Below are positions 42,392-49,297 of a DNA stretch of 64,000 nt, piece after piece; the stretch's first letter is position 1; every line of letters starts with the position of its first letter. The notes beneath the pieces were generated by a model. It ran no database searches. It was not told where the DNA came from and worked only from the letters and a program-made list of their open reading frames with translations. Source of the DNA: Geothrix sp. Its GTDB lineage: Bacteria; Acidobacteriota; Holophagae; Holophagales; Holophagaceae. Location of the stretch: the NCBI GenBank assembly GCA_019449415.1, contig JAGRPP010000026.1, forward strand, positions 1 through 64,000, read 5' to 3'. The translations under genes and the position numbers were made by a program.

Positions 42392-42443
42392 CCTGACCAG
42401 GATCCTCCGGTAGCGCTTGCGCCGGGGCCCGCCGGGACCGATC

Positions 42444-42480
42444 GTGTCCCTGCGCCGTGTCCCTGCGCCGTATTCCTGCG
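42444..42480 (+). repeat. Short tandem repeat before MEMO gene
   Basis: Two exact 13-base units (gtgtccctgcgcc) followed by a degenerate third lie just upstream of the GGAGGGG ribosome site of the MEMO gene. Unit-number change here would alter the leader length. Confidence 0.75.
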
Positions 42481-42491
42481 GAGGGGTCGCC

Positions 42492-43292
42492 ATGTTGACG
42501 GTTCGCCCGGCCATCGTCGCCGGCAGGTTCTATCCGGGGGAGCCGCATCGCCTGAGGGAGGAGGTGGACGCCCTCCTCGCGGCGGTGAAGGTGCCACCGG
42601 CCGATTCCATGCCAAAGGCCCTGATCGTGCCCCACGCCGGCTATGTTTATTCGGGCCCCGTAGCCGCCAGCGGCTATGCTCGGCTGATGCGGGAGGGCGG
42701 CACCCTCGAACGGGTCGTGCTGCTGGGACCCAGCCATTACGCGGCCTTCGAGGGGCTGGCCCTGCCCGAATCCGAGGCCTTCGAAACCCCTCTGGGCATC
42801 GTGGAGGTCGACCTGGAGGCCCTCGCCCGCATCCCGCAGATACGCCGCAGCGAGGCCATCCACCGGCCCGAGCATGCCCTGGAGGTGCATCTCCCCTTCC
42901 TGCAGCGGGTGGCCCCGAAGGCCAAGGTGGTGCCCTTGGCCGTGGGCCAGGCCTACCCCGCCCAGGTGGCCGAGGTGCTGGAGGCCCTCTGGGGCGGGCC
43001 GGAAACCATGATCGTCGTGAGTTCCGACCTCTCCCACTACCTGTCCTACCGCGAGTGCCGCAGGGTCGACGCGGAAACCACCCGGCAGATCCTCCACCTG
43101 GACCCGGCCCTGGCCCCGGGGGCCGCCTGTGGAGCGGCCCCGGTGGCAGGGTTCCTCGAAGCGGCGCGGCGCAGGCACCTGCATCCCCTGCTCCTCGACC
43201 TCCGGAACTCGGGTGACACGGCAGGAGGCCAAGATGAGGTCGTCGGCTATGGCGCCTTCGCCTTCTATGAAACCCGCACCGATCGGCCCTGA
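42492..43292 (+). CDS. AmmeMemoRadiSam system protein B (MEMO family)
   Basis: A 266-residue MEMO-fold protein. The site residues are in IVPHAGYVYSGP, GPSHYAAF, SSDLSHYLSY and GAACGAAPV, giving three histidines and a cysteine as in human MEMO1. The system's function in bacteria is unknown; it is defined by MEMO, AMMECR1 and a radical SAM protein encoded together. The ATG is preceded by GGAGGGG. It overlaps the next gene by 26 bases. Confidence 0.93.
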   Translation: MLTVRPAIVAGRFYPGEPHRLREEVDALLAAVKVPPADSMPKALIVPHAGYVYSGPVAASGYARLMREGGTLERVVLLGPSHYAAFEGLALPESEAFETPLGIVEVDLEALARIPQIRRSEAIHRPEHALEVHLPFLQRVAPKAKVVPLAVGQAYPAQVAEVLEALWGGPETMIVVSSDLSHYLSYRECRRVDAETTRQILHLDPALAPGAACGAAPVAGFLEAARRRHLHPLLLDLRNSGDTAGGQDEVVGYGAFAFYETRTDRP

Positions 43293-44922
43293 GCGGCCGG
43301 AACGGGATGGAGGCGAGCTGGCGCGGCTGGCTCGCGCGGCCATCGCCGCCGCTCTGGATGACCAGGAGCCCGGGGTGGCCCTCCCCGAGGGCTTCGACGG
43401 GCCGGGCGCCACCTTCGTGACCCTCACCGTGGACGGGAAGCTGCGTGGCTGCGTGGGCAGCCCCGTGCCGGACGCCTCCCTCATGAAGGGCCTCATCGAC
43501 CACGCATGCGCCGCCGCCTTCCGGGACACCCGCTTCAGACCGCTCGGGCACGAGGAGCTGTCCCGGTCCTCCGTGGAGGTATCCCTGCTCTCCCCACTGC
43601 GCCCCATCGCCTGCGTGGACGAGGAGGATCTCCTGCGCCAGCTCCGACCTGGCGTGGACGGCCTCGTCCTGGACTGCGGCGGAGACAGAGCGCTTTTCCT
43701 GCCCCAGGTCTGGACAACACTGCCCGAGCCCCGGGCCTATCTCTCGGCCCTCAAGCGCAAGGCGGGATGGCCTGCGGCCCTCTGGCCACCGAGCATTCGC
43801 GCCTGGACCTTCACCGCGGAGGCCTGGCATGACGACCCCCCGCAGGCGCACAACCGGGGGCCCGAGGCCGTGGATGGCCTCTACCCCGCCCGTCACTGGC
43901 ACCGGCTCGGGGATGGCCGGCTCCGCTGCGATGTCTGCCCCCACGGTTGCGCCCTGCGGGAGGGACAGCGCGGCCGGTGCTCCGTGCGCCAGCGGAGCGG
44001 CGACCGCATGGTCCTCGCGGCCTTCGGCCGGACCAGCGGCTTTTGCGTGGATCCCATCGAAAAGAAACCGCTCCATCACTTCCTACCGGGCTCCCGGGTG
44101 CTGTCCTTCGGCACGGTGGGCTGCAACCTCTCCTGCCGCTTCTGCCAGAACTGGAAGCTCTCGGGCTCGCGCGACCTGGGCCTTCTCCGAGATCGGGCCA
44201 CGCCTCAAGCCATCGCCGAGGACGCCCGTCGCGAGGGCTGCCGCAGCGTCGCCTTCACCTACAACGAGCCGGCCACCTCCCTGGAGTTCGCTTCGGAGGT
44301 GGCCGAAGCTTGCCATGCGAAAGGCATCGCCACGGTGGCCGTGACGGCGGGTTATCTGAAGGCGGCGGCTCGGCGGGATTTCTTCGCCCATCTGGACGCG
44401 GCCAATGTGGATCTGAAGGCCTTCAGCGACGACTTCTACCGGCGCGTCACGGCCGGCACCCTCAGCCCTGTGCTCGACACGCTGCGTTACCTGGTGCACG
44501 AGACGAAGGTGTGGACGGAGATCACCGCCCTGCTCATCCCCGGCCTGAACGATGCCGACGATGAACTCCGCCGGCTCTCAGCCTGGATCGCCTCCGAGCT
44601 CGGGGTAGAGGTTCCCCTGCACTTCAGCGCCTTCCATCCGGACCATCGGATGCGGGAGCTGCCGCCCACTCCCCTGGCCACCCTCGCCCGGGCCAGGGCC
44701 CTCGCCCGCGAGGCGGGTCTGAGGTATGTCTACACCGGGAATGTGCGCGACCTGGAGGGCTCGACGACCTCCTGTCCCGGCTGCGGCGACGCCGTGATCC
44801 GACGGGATGGCTACCGGGTGGTGGACCTGGACCTCAAGGACGGTGGCAGCTGCGGGCGCTGCGGCCGGCTGATCCCCGGGGTCTTCGCCGCCTCCGACGA
44901 ACCGGCTCATTTCCCGGCGTAG
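43267..44922 (+). CDS. Fusion of AMMECR1 (AmmeMemoRadiSam A) and radical SAM enzyme
   Basis: A 551-residue protein. Residues 14-190 are an AMMECR1 domain with LRGCVGS (59-65). Residues 210-545 are the AmmeMemoRadiSam radical SAM enzyme, with CDVCPHGC, GRCSVR, the cluster motif CNLSCRFC (Cys286, 290, 293), then FTYNEPATS and a C-terminal zinc-like pair CPGC/CGRC. The two parts are usually separate genes. The radical SAM domain resembles pyruvate-formate-lyase activases. The start overlaps the MEMO gene; no good ribosome site is seen, so translation may be coupled. Its 3' end overlaps the convergent gene by 16 bases. Confidence 0.92.
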   Translation: MKPAPIGPERPERDGGELARLARAAIAAALDDQEPGVALPEGFDGPGATFVTLTVDGKLRGCVGSPVPDASLMKGLIDHACAAAFRDTRFRPLGHEELSRSSVEVSLLSPLRPIACVDEEDLLRQLRPGVDGLVLDCGGDRALFLPQVWTTLPEPRAYLSALKRKAGWPAALWPPSIRAWTFTAEAWHDDPPQAHNRGPEAVDGLYPARHWHRLGDGRLRCDVCPHGCALREGQRGRCSVRQRSGDRMVLAAFGRTSGFCVDPIEKKPLHHFLPGSRVLSFGTVGCNLSCRFCQNWKLSGSRDLGLLRDRATPQAIAEDARREGCRSVAFTYNEPATSLEFASEVAEACHAKGIATVAVTAGYLKAAARRDFFAHLDAANVDLKAFSDDFYRRVTAGTLSPVLDTLRYLVHETKVWTEITALLIPGLNDADDELRRLSAWIASELGVEVPLHFSAFHPDHRMRELPPTPLATLARARALAREAGLRYVYTGNVRDLEGSTTSCPGCGDAVIRRDGYRVVDLDLKDGGSCGRCGRLIPGVFAASDEPAHFPA

Positions 44923-46319
44923 ACCGTCACCCCGTAGTGCTCGGGATCCCAGGGTGCATCGCTGTTCCAGTGCCCATAGGCGTGGCTGTCATCCGTGCGG
45001 AAGCGCAGCGTGTAGGTGCCTTTGGGCAGGCTGATCACCTCGTCGGCCAGGCGGTTCTTGGTGGCGCCGCCTGCGTGATGAGTGCGGCTGCGCTCCATGA
45101 ACCAGGCGCGCTTGCCGGCGGCATCCTCGATCCAGGCCTCGTCGGCCATGTCCTCCCCGTCGCCTTCCGCGATGGCGTAGATCCTCACGGAGCGGCCGGC
45201 GGAGAGGGTGAACGAGGCACTGCGGTCCTGGCCGTCGCCCACGCGCACCAGCTCGGCCACCACGGGCCAGGTCAGCGGGTCCGTCAATGCCACCGCCGCC
45301 AGGTCCCCATCCGCCGGCACCGACAGCGTCAGGCCATACATGCCGGGATCGCAGGGAGGCGCGGCGTTCCAGTCCGCAGGGGAATGCGAATCATCCGTCA
45401 CGAAGGATGCCTCGTAGTCGCCCGCAGGCAGCTGGAGGGTCTCCACCTGGCGGCGGTTCTTGCGGGCCCCGCCGGCGAACTGGGCCTTGTCCATGCTCAT
45501 CTCCCACACCCGGGCGCGCGTGTGGGCGTCCGTGATCCAGCCGTAGTCGTGCATGCGCCGGCCGCTGCCCTCGCCTTCGGCATAGACATGCAGCGCGACC
45601 GCCTTCTTCAGGTGGAAGGCCTGGGTCCTGTGGCTGCCATCCGAGACCGCTGGCAGCGCCAGCACGATGTTCTTCCACCGCAGCGGCGCCTCGAAAAGCG
45701 CCACCGTCCCGGCCTCGCCGCCCGGCAGGTAGAGCTCCAGACCGTAGTTGCCCACCTGTTCCCGCCAGTGGCGCAGCATGCTCGCATCGTCCGCCCCGAA
45801 GGCCGCCAGGAAGCCATGGGGCCGATCGGCCCCCTCCCGGTGGAGGGCCCGGCGGTCGATGTTCCGGCTCCACTGGGCGAAGAGCAGGCTCTGCCCGAAC
45901 CCGTGATTGGCGAAGTAGACCTCATAGCTGCCCTTCGGCAGGTCGAGGTACTGGTCGGCCACGCGGTATTCCCAGTCCCGCTTCGTGTTGGATCCGTCCA
46001 TCTGCCACACCACCTCGCGGGTGACGGCGTTCAGGATCCACCCGTAGGCGAAGAGCGGCTGATCCATGGGCGCGCGGCCAAAGCGCCGGAGCCCCCCGCC
46101 CTTGGCATAGACATGGACCTTCATGGCCTGGGGCAGCGTGAAGCCCTGGCTGCGCACCTCAGCGGCCTCGAAGCCCTTGAGGGAAACGATGCGGGGCTCC
46201 GCCTTCGCCTCCGCGCTGTGCAGAACCAGAGGGGCGAAGGCCGTGAGCAGGAGGAAGGCGGTGATCGTCTGGACCACGCGCCCCAGGGCGGCGGCTTCGG
46301 ACATCAGATAGGACAGCAT
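44907..46319 (-). CDS. Exported protein with three tandem beta-rich repeats
   Basis: A 470-residue protein with an N-terminal hydrophobic export segment (about 17-37). It has three repeats, about 60-198, 233-334 and 368-467, each containing an YGWI/AWI strand, AGGA.KNR (second and third) and LPxGxYxxxFxTDDSHxxxxWN..P.DPxxYGxT. No enzyme motif is seen, so it is probably a binding or structural protein. I do not know a named family. The ATG has AGGAG five bases upstream. Confidence 0.8.
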   Translation of the reverse strand: MLSYLMSEAAALGRVVQTITAFLLLTAFAPLVLHSAEAKAEPRIVSLKGFEAAEVRSQGFTLPQAMKVHVYAKGGGLRRFGRAPMDQPLFAYGWILNAVTREVVWQMDGSNTKRDWEYRVADQYLDLPKGSYEVYFANHGFGQSLLFAQWSRNIDRRALHREGADRPHGFLAAFGADDASMLRHWREQVGNYGLELYLPGGEAGTVALFEAPLRWKNIVLALPAVSDGSHRTQAFHLKKAVALHVYAEGEGSGRRMHDYGWITDAHTRARVWEMSMDKAQFAGGARKNRRQVETLQLPAGDYEASFVTDDSHSPADWNAAPPCDPGMYGLTLSVPADGDLAAVALTDPLTWPVVAELVRVGDGQDRSASFTLSAGRSVRIYAIAEGDGEDMADEAWIEDAAGKRAWFMERSRTHHAGGATKNRLADEVISLPKGTYTLRFRTDDSHAYGHWNSDAPWDPEHYGVTVYAGK

Positions 46320-46446
46320 GGGCACTCCTGTCGGGACCCCTTCAAGGTAGGCCCGACCATTCTGCCCCTGGCCGAGGGATCGGCGAATGGCGGATCCGGA
46401 CCGGCGGCTGGCCGCCCCCGTCCGGTCGGGAGTGCCCGGGCATAAG

Positions 46447-46510: not shown

Positions 46511-49075
46511 TCAGTTGTTGAGCGCGCCCGCGGTGATCCAGGCGGAGATCAGGGACTGATTGGCCGCGGACACATTCCGGTGCCCGCTTGCCAGTTGGAC
46601 GACCAGGGCGCTGGAGGCCGGATCGCCCGGCACGACCCGGAGCCCCGGCAGCGTGGTGGCGGGCACATTCACCAGGTTGGCGTAGGCGCTTCCCGCGGTG
46701 AGGTTCATGCCGGCCGCCCCCCCCGCGTCATGGCAGCCCACGCAGAGGGGCGTGAAGATCTGGGTCTGGATCTGAGTGAGCGTGGGGGCGGTGACTGCCG
46801 AGACGGTGATGGTGCGGACGGGCGGATTCGGATCCGCCAGCCCGTGGGAGTCCGTGGCCGTCAGGCGCACCGTGTAGGTCCCCGGGGCCGCAAAGGTGTG
46901 GGACCCCGGTGCCAACAAGGTCGAAGTCGTCCCGTCCCCGAAGGTCCAGACCACCGTGACCGCATCACCGTCTGGATCGGAGGCTGTGCCCGTGAAGGTC
47001 ACCGACTGGCCGGCGGTGATGGTGACATTGGTCGCAGGAGCGGTGATCGTCGCCGTGGGCGGCTGGTTCACTGGGGCGGCCGTGACGGTGATGGTGCGAG
47101 TGGGTGGATTCGGATCCGCCAACCCGTGGGAATCCGTGGCCGTCAGCCGTGCCGTGTAGGTTCCGGCCGCGGCGTAGGCATGGGCTCCGGGAGCCAGCAA
47201 GGTGGAAGTCCCCCCGTCTCCGAACTCCCAGAGGACCGTGACCGGGTCTCCGTTGGGATCCGAGGCGGTGCCCGTGAAGGTGACCGACTGCCCTGCGACG
47301 ATGCTGACGCTGGCGGAAGGCGAGGTGATCGTGGCGGAGGGCGGCAGGTTCACGGTGGAGGGCTGGACGGTGATGGTGCGGGTGGGCGGATTGGGATCCG
47401 CCAGCCCGTAGGCATCTGTGGCGGTCAGGCGGACCGTGTAGGTCCCGGCCATGGCATAGGTGTGGCTACCCGGCGAGAGGAGGGGGGAAGTGCTGCCGTC
47501 CCCGAAGTCCCAGAGGACCGAGACGGCATCGCCATCAGGATCCGTGGCCGTCCCGGCGAAGGTGACCGACTGCCCGGCCTGGATGGTCGCATCCGCGGCC
47601 GGCGAAGTGATGACGGCCGTGGGTGGGTGATTGGCCGGAGGGGCGGTCGTGGGAAGGATCTGGCCCCGGATCTCGCCGGCGGGATACGCGCGGGTCGGGA
47701 CATTCAGGTAGAGATTCCCGGCTGCGAGGGCGGCGCTGAACCCCGCCCAGTCGCCCGCGTAGGGCCCCTGGAGGTTCCGGAGGCGGATCCGGCCAGCGAG
47801 AGCGAAGCCGCCCACGCCCCCGCTTCCGCTCTCTCTCCCGCTCGTGAGTTCGTCCTCATCGTCATCGAAGTCATCGCCGCGGGGGAGGACGGCCACCAGC
47901 GGCCCCGTGGCGCCTTTGGCGCCTTGGCGGATCTCGATCCTGCGCACGCGGGAGATGCCGGTGATCGTCACCCGGTAGCCGAGCGCCGGGCCGGTGGACA
48001 CCTGGTCATCGGAGAGAGTGGTTCCACTCACGAAGCTGAAGGTCGCCTTCCCGGAGGCCTGGGTCGTGACGGGGGGAACCTCCTCCGCCCCGCTGAGCGT
48101 GGCCGTGAACTGGGCCGGTGCGGCGGGAAGAATGGCAGGCCGCGCCGCCAGGACGAGGCCCCGGCTGGTGCTGGTCCAGTACACGCTGCCGTTGGAAGCC
48201 ACCGCGACCCCCGTGGGCTCAGGATCACCCCGGTGGATGACCGTCCGGGAAAGGGTCGCGAGATCGAGGGCGCTCACGGTATTGGCTCCGCCCGCGGCGG
48301 CGTCCTTGCCCGGCGTGGGCACCTCCGTGAAGTACAGAACATCCTCGGCCGGACCGAGGGCGAGGCCTTGCGGCGACTTCAGTCCGGTGACAAGTACGCT
48401 GCCCTTGCCGTCCGGAGACCGGTGGTAGATGAGCCCGGCAGCGCGACTGGTCCAGTAGAGGTCCCCGGAGGACGCCGCCACCAGGACCGTCTTGTCCGGC
48501 CCTGAAGGATCGGGGATGACCGTGGGTGAGGCACCTCGCACCAGCACGGCGGCCACGCCGCCTCCGCCCTGCGCGGCCGTACCCGCGAGGTACACCCGGT
48601 CTGCGGCATCCACGGCGATGGTCGTGGTCGGGAGCATGCCGCCCGCGTGAAGGACGGCAGGCGACCCCGCGGCCCGGCTCTGGGTCATGAGGGCGCCCTT
48701 CTGCGCATCCACCCAGTAGAGCCTCCCCGCGCGGTTCGCCGCGAATCCGGACTGGACGGCAGTCCCGCCGGCGATCAGGCCCACGCTTCCGGTGTCCAGG
48801 TCGATCCTGGCGAGCGAGGCATCCAGGGGGGCCGCGGGTTGCTGGGAGACCACCAGCGATCGATTGTCCGCCAGGGCGATGCCCGTGGGCTTCGACAGAC
48901 CCGAAGCCACCACGGAGAATGAGAATGGCGCAGCGCTTCCGCCCGGGCCCGGCTGGCTGGCGGAGGTCGTCTGCGCCTGGGAGGCGCTTTTCCCGCAGTG
49001 GAGGACGGGCAGCACCAACGCCACTCCCGCAAGGGTGGCCAGGCTCAGGGAACGGCGGAAGAAGGTGTGGGTCAT
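46511..49075 (-). CDS. Exported CHRD/PKD-repeat protein with C-terminal cytochrome c site
   Basis: An 854-residue exported protein. The signal ends near Cys27 (VLPVLHCG), a possible but non-canonical lipobox. Residues about 40-320 look like a beta-propeller (repeats such as KPTGIALADN, SPQGLALGPAEDVLYFTE). A CHRD domain follows (about 322-470, FTATLSGAEEVPPV), then three near-identical PKD domains (about 480-760, each GTYT.RLTATD.HGLADPNPP), and a final haem site CVGCH (778-782) in a short cytochrome-like segment. A role at the cell surface, perhaps in adhesion or electron transfer, is inference. Ribosome site GGAGAG precedes the ATG. Confidence 0.85.
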   Translation of the reverse strand: MTHTFFRRSLSLATLAGVALVLPVLHCGKSASQAQTTSASQPGPGGSAAPFSFSVVASGLSKPTGIALADNRSLVVSQQPAAPLDASLARIDLDTGSVGLIAGGTAVQSGFAANRAGRLYWVDAQKGALMTQSRAAGSPAVLHAGGMLPTTTIAVDAADRVYLAGTAAQGGGGVAAVLVRGASPTVIPDPSGPDKTVLVAASSGDLYWTSRAAGLIYHRSPDGKGSVLVTGLKSPQGLALGPAEDVLYFTEVPTPGKDAAAGGANTVSALDLATLSRTVIHRGDPEPTGVAVASNGSVYWTSTSRGLVLAARPAILPAAPAQFTATLSGAEEVPPVTTQASGKATFSFVSGTTLSDDQVSTGPALGYRVTITGISRVRRIEIRQGAKGATGPLVAVLPRGDDFDDDEDELTSGRESGSGGVGGFALAGRIRLRNLQGPYAGDWAGFSAALAAGNLYLNVPTRAYPAGEIRGQILPTTAPPANHPPTAVITSPAADATIQAGQSVTFAGTATDPDGDAVSVLWDFGDGSTSPLLSPGSHTYAMAGTYTVRLTATDAYGLADPNPPTRTITVQPSTVNLPPSATITSPSASVSIVAGQSVTFTGTASDPNGDPVTVLWEFGDGGTSTLLAPGAHAYAAAGTYTARLTATDSHGLADPNPPTRTITVTAAPVNQPPTATITAPATNVTITAGQSVTFTGTASDPDGDAVTVVWTFGDGTTSTLLAPGSHTFAAPGTYTVRLTATDSHGLADPNPPVRTITVSAVTAPTLTQIQTQIFTPLCVGCHDAGGAAGMNLTAGSAYANLVNVPATTLPGLRVVPGDPASSALVVQLASGHRNVSAANQSLISAWITAGALNN

Positions 49076-49297
49076 GGGTCTCTCCTGTGAAGACGGGCCA
49101 TCCCCGTCCGCCCTGTGCGGGGCGAAGGATCGGCAAAATGAAAAAAGGGCGCGGGTCTTCACCACCCATGCGGGGCCATGCGGGATGCCAGCCACTCACC
49201 TGGACGGAATGGCCCTCCTGGAACGGCCGGTGTCGATCACCGGAATGGACACCAGATTCGGGCTTCCGGGCATTCACTCCGGAAGTGAGTCGTAAAC

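Follow-up and report, generated by a model that had tools for sequence, protein, structure and literature searches.

How far does a surface-type scaffold carry the single haem that the end of this gene appears to encode, and what would that haem do? The gene lies in the window, the whole 64,000-nucleotide stretch of a Geothrix contig that was analysed. Its open reading frame, read directly from the sequence, has exactly the limits given in Table 1 and encodes 854 amino acids from an ATG start. Starting instead from the in-frame GTG at 49195 would lengthen the protein by 40 residues; the ATG is preferred because the signal peptide starts at or near it in all congeners. The genome of origin comprises 2.15 Mb in 31 contigs and is 64% complete. 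Judged from sequence, the product would be a modular c-type cytochrome with one haem, exported and probably anchored by lipid, on a surface-type scaffold, a reading that we hold with moderate confidence.

Table 1 Features of the gene, numbered by position in the window
Feature	Residues	Position	Strand	Basis
Coding sequence, propeller-CHRD-PKD x3-monohaem cytochrome protein		46511..49075	-	Open reading frame and orthologs
Shine-Dalgarno sequence AGGAGA, 5 nt upstream of the ATG		49081..49086	-	Direct reading
Signal peptide (LHC-GKS), probable lipoprotein signal with atypical -1 residue	up to conserved Cys27	48995..49075	-	Ortholog comparison
Likely six-bladed NHL/YWTD-like beta-propeller	~50-318	48122..48928	-	SGL near cut-off, PDB search, model
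CHRD domain	323-473	47657..48109	-	PF07452, E 4.2e-19
PKD domain 1	482-575	47351..47632	-	Repeat period and Pfam
PKD domain 2	576-669	47069..47350	-	Repeat period and Pfam
PKD domain 3	670-763	46787..47068	-	Repeat period and Pfam
C-terminal monohaem c-type cytochrome domain (~91 residues)	764-854	46514..46786	-	Profile matches and alignment
Haem c attachment motif CVGCH	778-782	46730..46744	-	Direct reading and orthologs
Gly831-His832-Arg833, invariant, where relatives have the distal-Met loop (xRMPxG); His832 a candidate distal ligand	831-833	46577..46585	-	Alignment

The original prediction placed a haem site at the C terminus, and the CVGCH motif there does lie within a domain homologous to a c-type cytochrome family. 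A Pfam scan of the full-length protein made no call for this tail. The profile search of the tail that had been proposed as a check recovered two matches, both under their cut-offs: Pfam PSCyt1 (PF07635) at 16.0 bits (E 0.019; cut-off 22 bits) and the NCBIfam model for the LIC11213 lipoprotein (NF047812) at 24.3 bits (E 2.6e-5; cut-off 100 bits). Since no Pfam family exceeds its cut-off, annotation would miss the haem domain. The corresponding domain of the only copy found outside the genus, in a genome from another family of the phylum (G116), passes the PSCyt1 cut-off with 26.5 bits. A profile built from Met-type relatives only, i.e. those that keep the distal methionine, gave the haem domain of the window 68 bits (E 6e-18), and the best of 200 shuffled sequences reached 5.4 bits. 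A chance CxxCH was rejected on the basis of these scores (68 bits against at most 5.4), the invariance of the motif and a low dN/dS. The latter is 0.055 and 0.037 for the haem domain in comparisons with two close genomes, and about 0.10 for the whole gene; the domain is under strong purifying selection and is maintained. Covalent attachment of haem c via C778 and C781 is thus predicted with high confidence.

Whole-genome searches identified the haem domain family in 59 of 396 genomes of the phylum, where its members are often lipoproteins of about 130-230 residues. Their shared frame reads CxxCH ... GLxL..AY.nLVNVpS ... RVxPGDPxxSYLxxKl ... GxRMPxgGpxLs...i..WIxxGAxNN. Both haem domains of FoxE (PDB 5MAB) also match the family profile (7.5e-14). 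A DNA search of plasmids found nothing, and a scan of genome contigs returned PKD proteins only, with no gain for the haem domain. A single-sequence AlphaFold model of the domain (pLDDT 39) was useless, with no readable ligand geometry.

The earlier reading missed that the distal-Met loop is absent from this haem domain. We collected 42 distinct CxxCH domains (one row incomplete), among which 34 keep a methionine in the loop and seven have GHR, all seven belonging to proteins with the propeller-CHRD-PKD x3 architecture. In every copy of that architecture the loop is deleted or shortened to GHR. Both CxxCH and GHR are invariant in each complete copy, including that of G116, which shares 54% identity in this domain. 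According to the published description of FoxE (PMC10654088), each haem has as its distal axial ligand a methionine from the opposite domain. By residue count these ligands, 53 and 57 residues from CxxCH, are the RMP methionines of our alignment.

Searching plasmids with tblastn recovered two lipoproteins of 235 residues, from Bacteroides xylanisolvens (E 3e-13) and Parabacteroides distasonis (E 3e-5). They are without RMP, and in a MAFFT alignment have a histidine in the His832 column, so a His-type subgroup seems to be present in more than one phylum. On the Bacteroides/Parabacteroides plasmids, the gene for this His-type mono-haem lipoprotein (L240, 2096-2803; L241, 2099-2806) sits between genes for a porin and a Rid-family protein, with a di-haem-type CxxCH/oxidoreductase gene upstream in both.

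The presence of GHR in place of the Met loop points to either His/His or open haem coordination. We put the chance that His832 serves as the distal ligand at about even. Open coordination would suit a different role, in which deletion of the loop leaves a five-coordinate haem that binds a small ligand or peroxide, as a sensor or peroxidase-like protein, with no electron relay. The deletion of the loop in all copies is in keeping with this, as is the location of the Parabacteroides lipoprotein gene near a gene of the di-haem oxidoreductase family and adjoining a porin. However, an invariant histidine stands where a ligand is expected and aligns in the distant Bacteroidota relatives, and no set of catalytic residues is recognised; we consider such a function improbable. 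Electron relay is preferred over small-molecule binding, since the nearest relative of solved structure, FoxE, works in electron transfer; we give such a role a reasonably good probability.

The scaffold that precedes the haem domain was largely as predicted. Its CHRD domain scored 70 bits against a Pfam cut-off of 24.1, and the PKD profiles (PF18911/PF00801) matched three stretches across residues ~482-763 with 186.7 bits (cut-off 27; E 6.8e-56). Where the G116 copy (L151) and a gene from another family (L130) have the CHRD stretch GHIHxG/AHIHxG, the genus of the window has RIEIxQG; a binding site may have been lost. The propeller proposed for the N-terminal region is likely to be six-bladed, but is not proven. 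The Pfam SGL profile fell just below its cut-off at residues 113-309 (24.3 against 26.3 bits), and a PDB sequence search had the YWTD propellers of LRP6 among its matches. Residues 41-327, modelled from the single sequence, gave a low-confidence structure (pLDDT 45) that is nearly all beta, with 23 strands; the best Foldseek matches of this model were the six-bladed propellers PknD/Pizza6, followed by LRP. The earlier assignment therefore holds as a probable one.

The PKD copies had been described as almost identical and as the result of recent duplication, and neither description survives comparison. Each copy has 94 residues, and the three follow one another in exact tandem (a 282 bp period). 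Any two are 71-76% identical in protein and 73-78% in DNA, and differ synonymously at 25-27 codons. The suggested comparison of copy number between genomes gave a constant three. In a tree of 15 PKD copies from five genomes there was no clustering of copies within one genome, and those of the two closest species paired by position, although most deeper forks were weak. Given three copies in every relative, the duplication is old.

Export is indicated by the signal peptide, which together with the CHRD and PKD domains agrees with the expectation of an exported protein with surface-type modules. The only cysteines in the whole protein are Cys27, C778 and C781. Cys27 is kept in every copy of the genus, where its context is LNC, FNC or IHC followed by GK in congeners, and is absent from G116. 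The lipobox rule of A, G or S at -1 is broken, as histidine or asparagine precedes Cys27; among 23 lipobox-like hits, drawn from 40 stretches that were roughly surveyed in a complete genome of the species, 18 had A, G or S there. The apparently ordinary signal peptide of the G116 copy also weighs against a lipid anchor. We read the protein as exported and probably lipid-anchored at Cys27.

On which side of the outer membrane it would reside is less clear, and we regard a location on the outer face as an evenly balanced call. The protein could instead be a lipoprotein anchored in the inner leaflet of the outer membrane and facing the periplasm, where it would carry electrons or assist assembly. 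There is no sequence sign of outer-membrane translocation, and the small relatives of the haem domain resemble ordinary lipoproteins. Yet a make-up of PKD, CHRD and propeller is met more typically in exposed proteins, and a published account has the PKD cytochromes of Methylococcus attached to the cell surface (PMC4257694), which makes a periplasmic site somewhat unlikely.

The complete gene occurs in seven of the 47 genomes of the genus. One further copy (G033) is cut by a contig end, and part of the PKD region is masked in the copy from G116. With so patchy a distribution, the protein is not a core respiratory part. The gene is flanked by mfd and acrB on one side and, on the other, by a gene for an exported protein with three repeats, an arrangement common only to near-identical species. 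In several other congeners the upstream neighbour of the ortholog is instead a transporter-like gene. Synteny is gone beyond the near-identical species, and no conserved neighbour ties the gene to an electron-transfer pathway; the gene travels alone and its context yields no pathway.

The downstream gene (44907-46325, minus strand) encodes an exported protein of ~472 residues with three repeats of ~130 residues, the second and third of which are alike in 54 of 131 aligned columns; it had no significant Pfam match and no NCBIfam match. An operon with this gene as a general feature was rejected, as the adjacency is found only in near-identical species. Further along, at 42417-44922 on the plus strand, are two apparently overlapping open reading frames, which we take to encode Memo-like and AMMECR1/radical-SAM (AmmeMemoRadiSam-type) proteins.

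The absence of an electron-transfer neighbour and the patchiness within the genus would fit a protein that is mainly concerned with surface adhesion or the matrix, its haem domain being structural or binding and without a redox role, and the bulk of the protein does consist of modules typical of surface proteins. Against this, few parts of the protein are as well conserved as the haem domain, which has 77-81% identity to distant congeners compared with 64-73% for the propeller and a dN/dS of 0.04-0.06, and CxxCH is never lost. We view a mainly adhesive function with no redox role as quite improbable.

The original prediction also assumed an organism with other multihaem cytochromes, and these were found. 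The genome encodes a protein with ten CxxCH motifs, MtrC/MtrF domains (PF22113, 1e-48) and a lipoprotein-type signal, which is classified from its sequence as an MtrC/OmcA-like lipoprotein (L227). A cytochrome c assembly gene is present, and the window itself encodes a NapC/NirT-like protein with five CxxCH motifs. In a complete genome of the same species, two 5-haem and three 10-haem genes lie together in a cluster (L204, L205). As judged from sequence, this set of haem genes is in keeping with a bacterium able to transfer electrons outward.

We propose that the protein would be exported by Sec and receive its haem after export, and that Cys27 would be lipidated to form a tether. The propeller and CHRD domain would then lie near the membrane with a binding or assembly role. 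From the anatomy of the protein, the three PKD domains could be a stiff spacer that holds the ~91-residue cytochrome domain away from the anchor. The haem, bonded through C778 and C781, would have His782 as its proximal ligand, and replacement of the distal methionine by His832 would lower its redox potential. This single haem might exchange electrons with other haem proteins or with an outside partner, decahaem lipoproteins of the OmcA/MtrC type being present as well.

If so, single-haem redox proteins borne on a scaffold would join the surface inventory of bacteria for which accounts of outward electron transfer deal almost only with multihaem cytochromes, and a His-for-Met variant of a common, poorly annotated cytochrome module would be defined. 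Tentatively, and with more doubt than confidence, we suggest an undescribed class of surface cytochrome. Its members would have a rigid, adhesin-like stalk (propeller, CHRD, PKD x3) and a single FoxE/PSCyt1-type haem at the tip, with His for Met making that tip low-potential or ligand-binding, in hosts with outward electron transfer; the His-type subfamily would occur in Bacteroidota as well. In the library that was searched, no paper names a CHRD domain, a PKD domain and a cytochrome together.

Several known systems share parts of this design. Methylococcus capsulatus has surface c-type cytochromes with PKD domains (the c5530 family, MCA0423 and MCA0338; PMC4257694). Like the protein of the window, they combine PKD with a c-type haem and are exported, surface-associated or released; compared by description only, they differ in that no propeller/CHRD/PKD x3 layout is described for them. 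FoxE (PDB 5MAB; PMC10654088) is similar in that each of its haem domains matches the family profile, but it has two haems with methionine distal ligands, whereas the window protein has one haem, no such methionine and a fusion to surface modules. The PSCyt1 proteins (PF07635, planctomycete cytochrome C) and the small Acidobacteriota/Leptospira-type lipoproteins (NF047812, LIC11213) have a homologous CxxCH domain with the frame VxPGDPxxSxL...WIxxGA. The members found are mostly Met-type and stand-alone, unlike the window domain, which is fused and scores under the curated cut-offs.

Another family of the phylum has CHRD-PKD-cytochrome fusions (G337, G390 and G396). They join CHRD-like repeats to one or two PKD domains and end in a haem domain related to that of the window protein. 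These fusions keep RMP and are thus Met-type; they have no GHR, and no propeller in the stretch that was read. At L130, L132 and L135, in three genomes of another family, a Met-type CHRD-PKD-cytochrome gene stands beside one for a small mono-haem lipoprotein that shares its haem domain and may be its redox partner. PKD surface cytochromes and Met-type CHRD-PKD-haem fusions are therefore already known, and the testable new point is His832.
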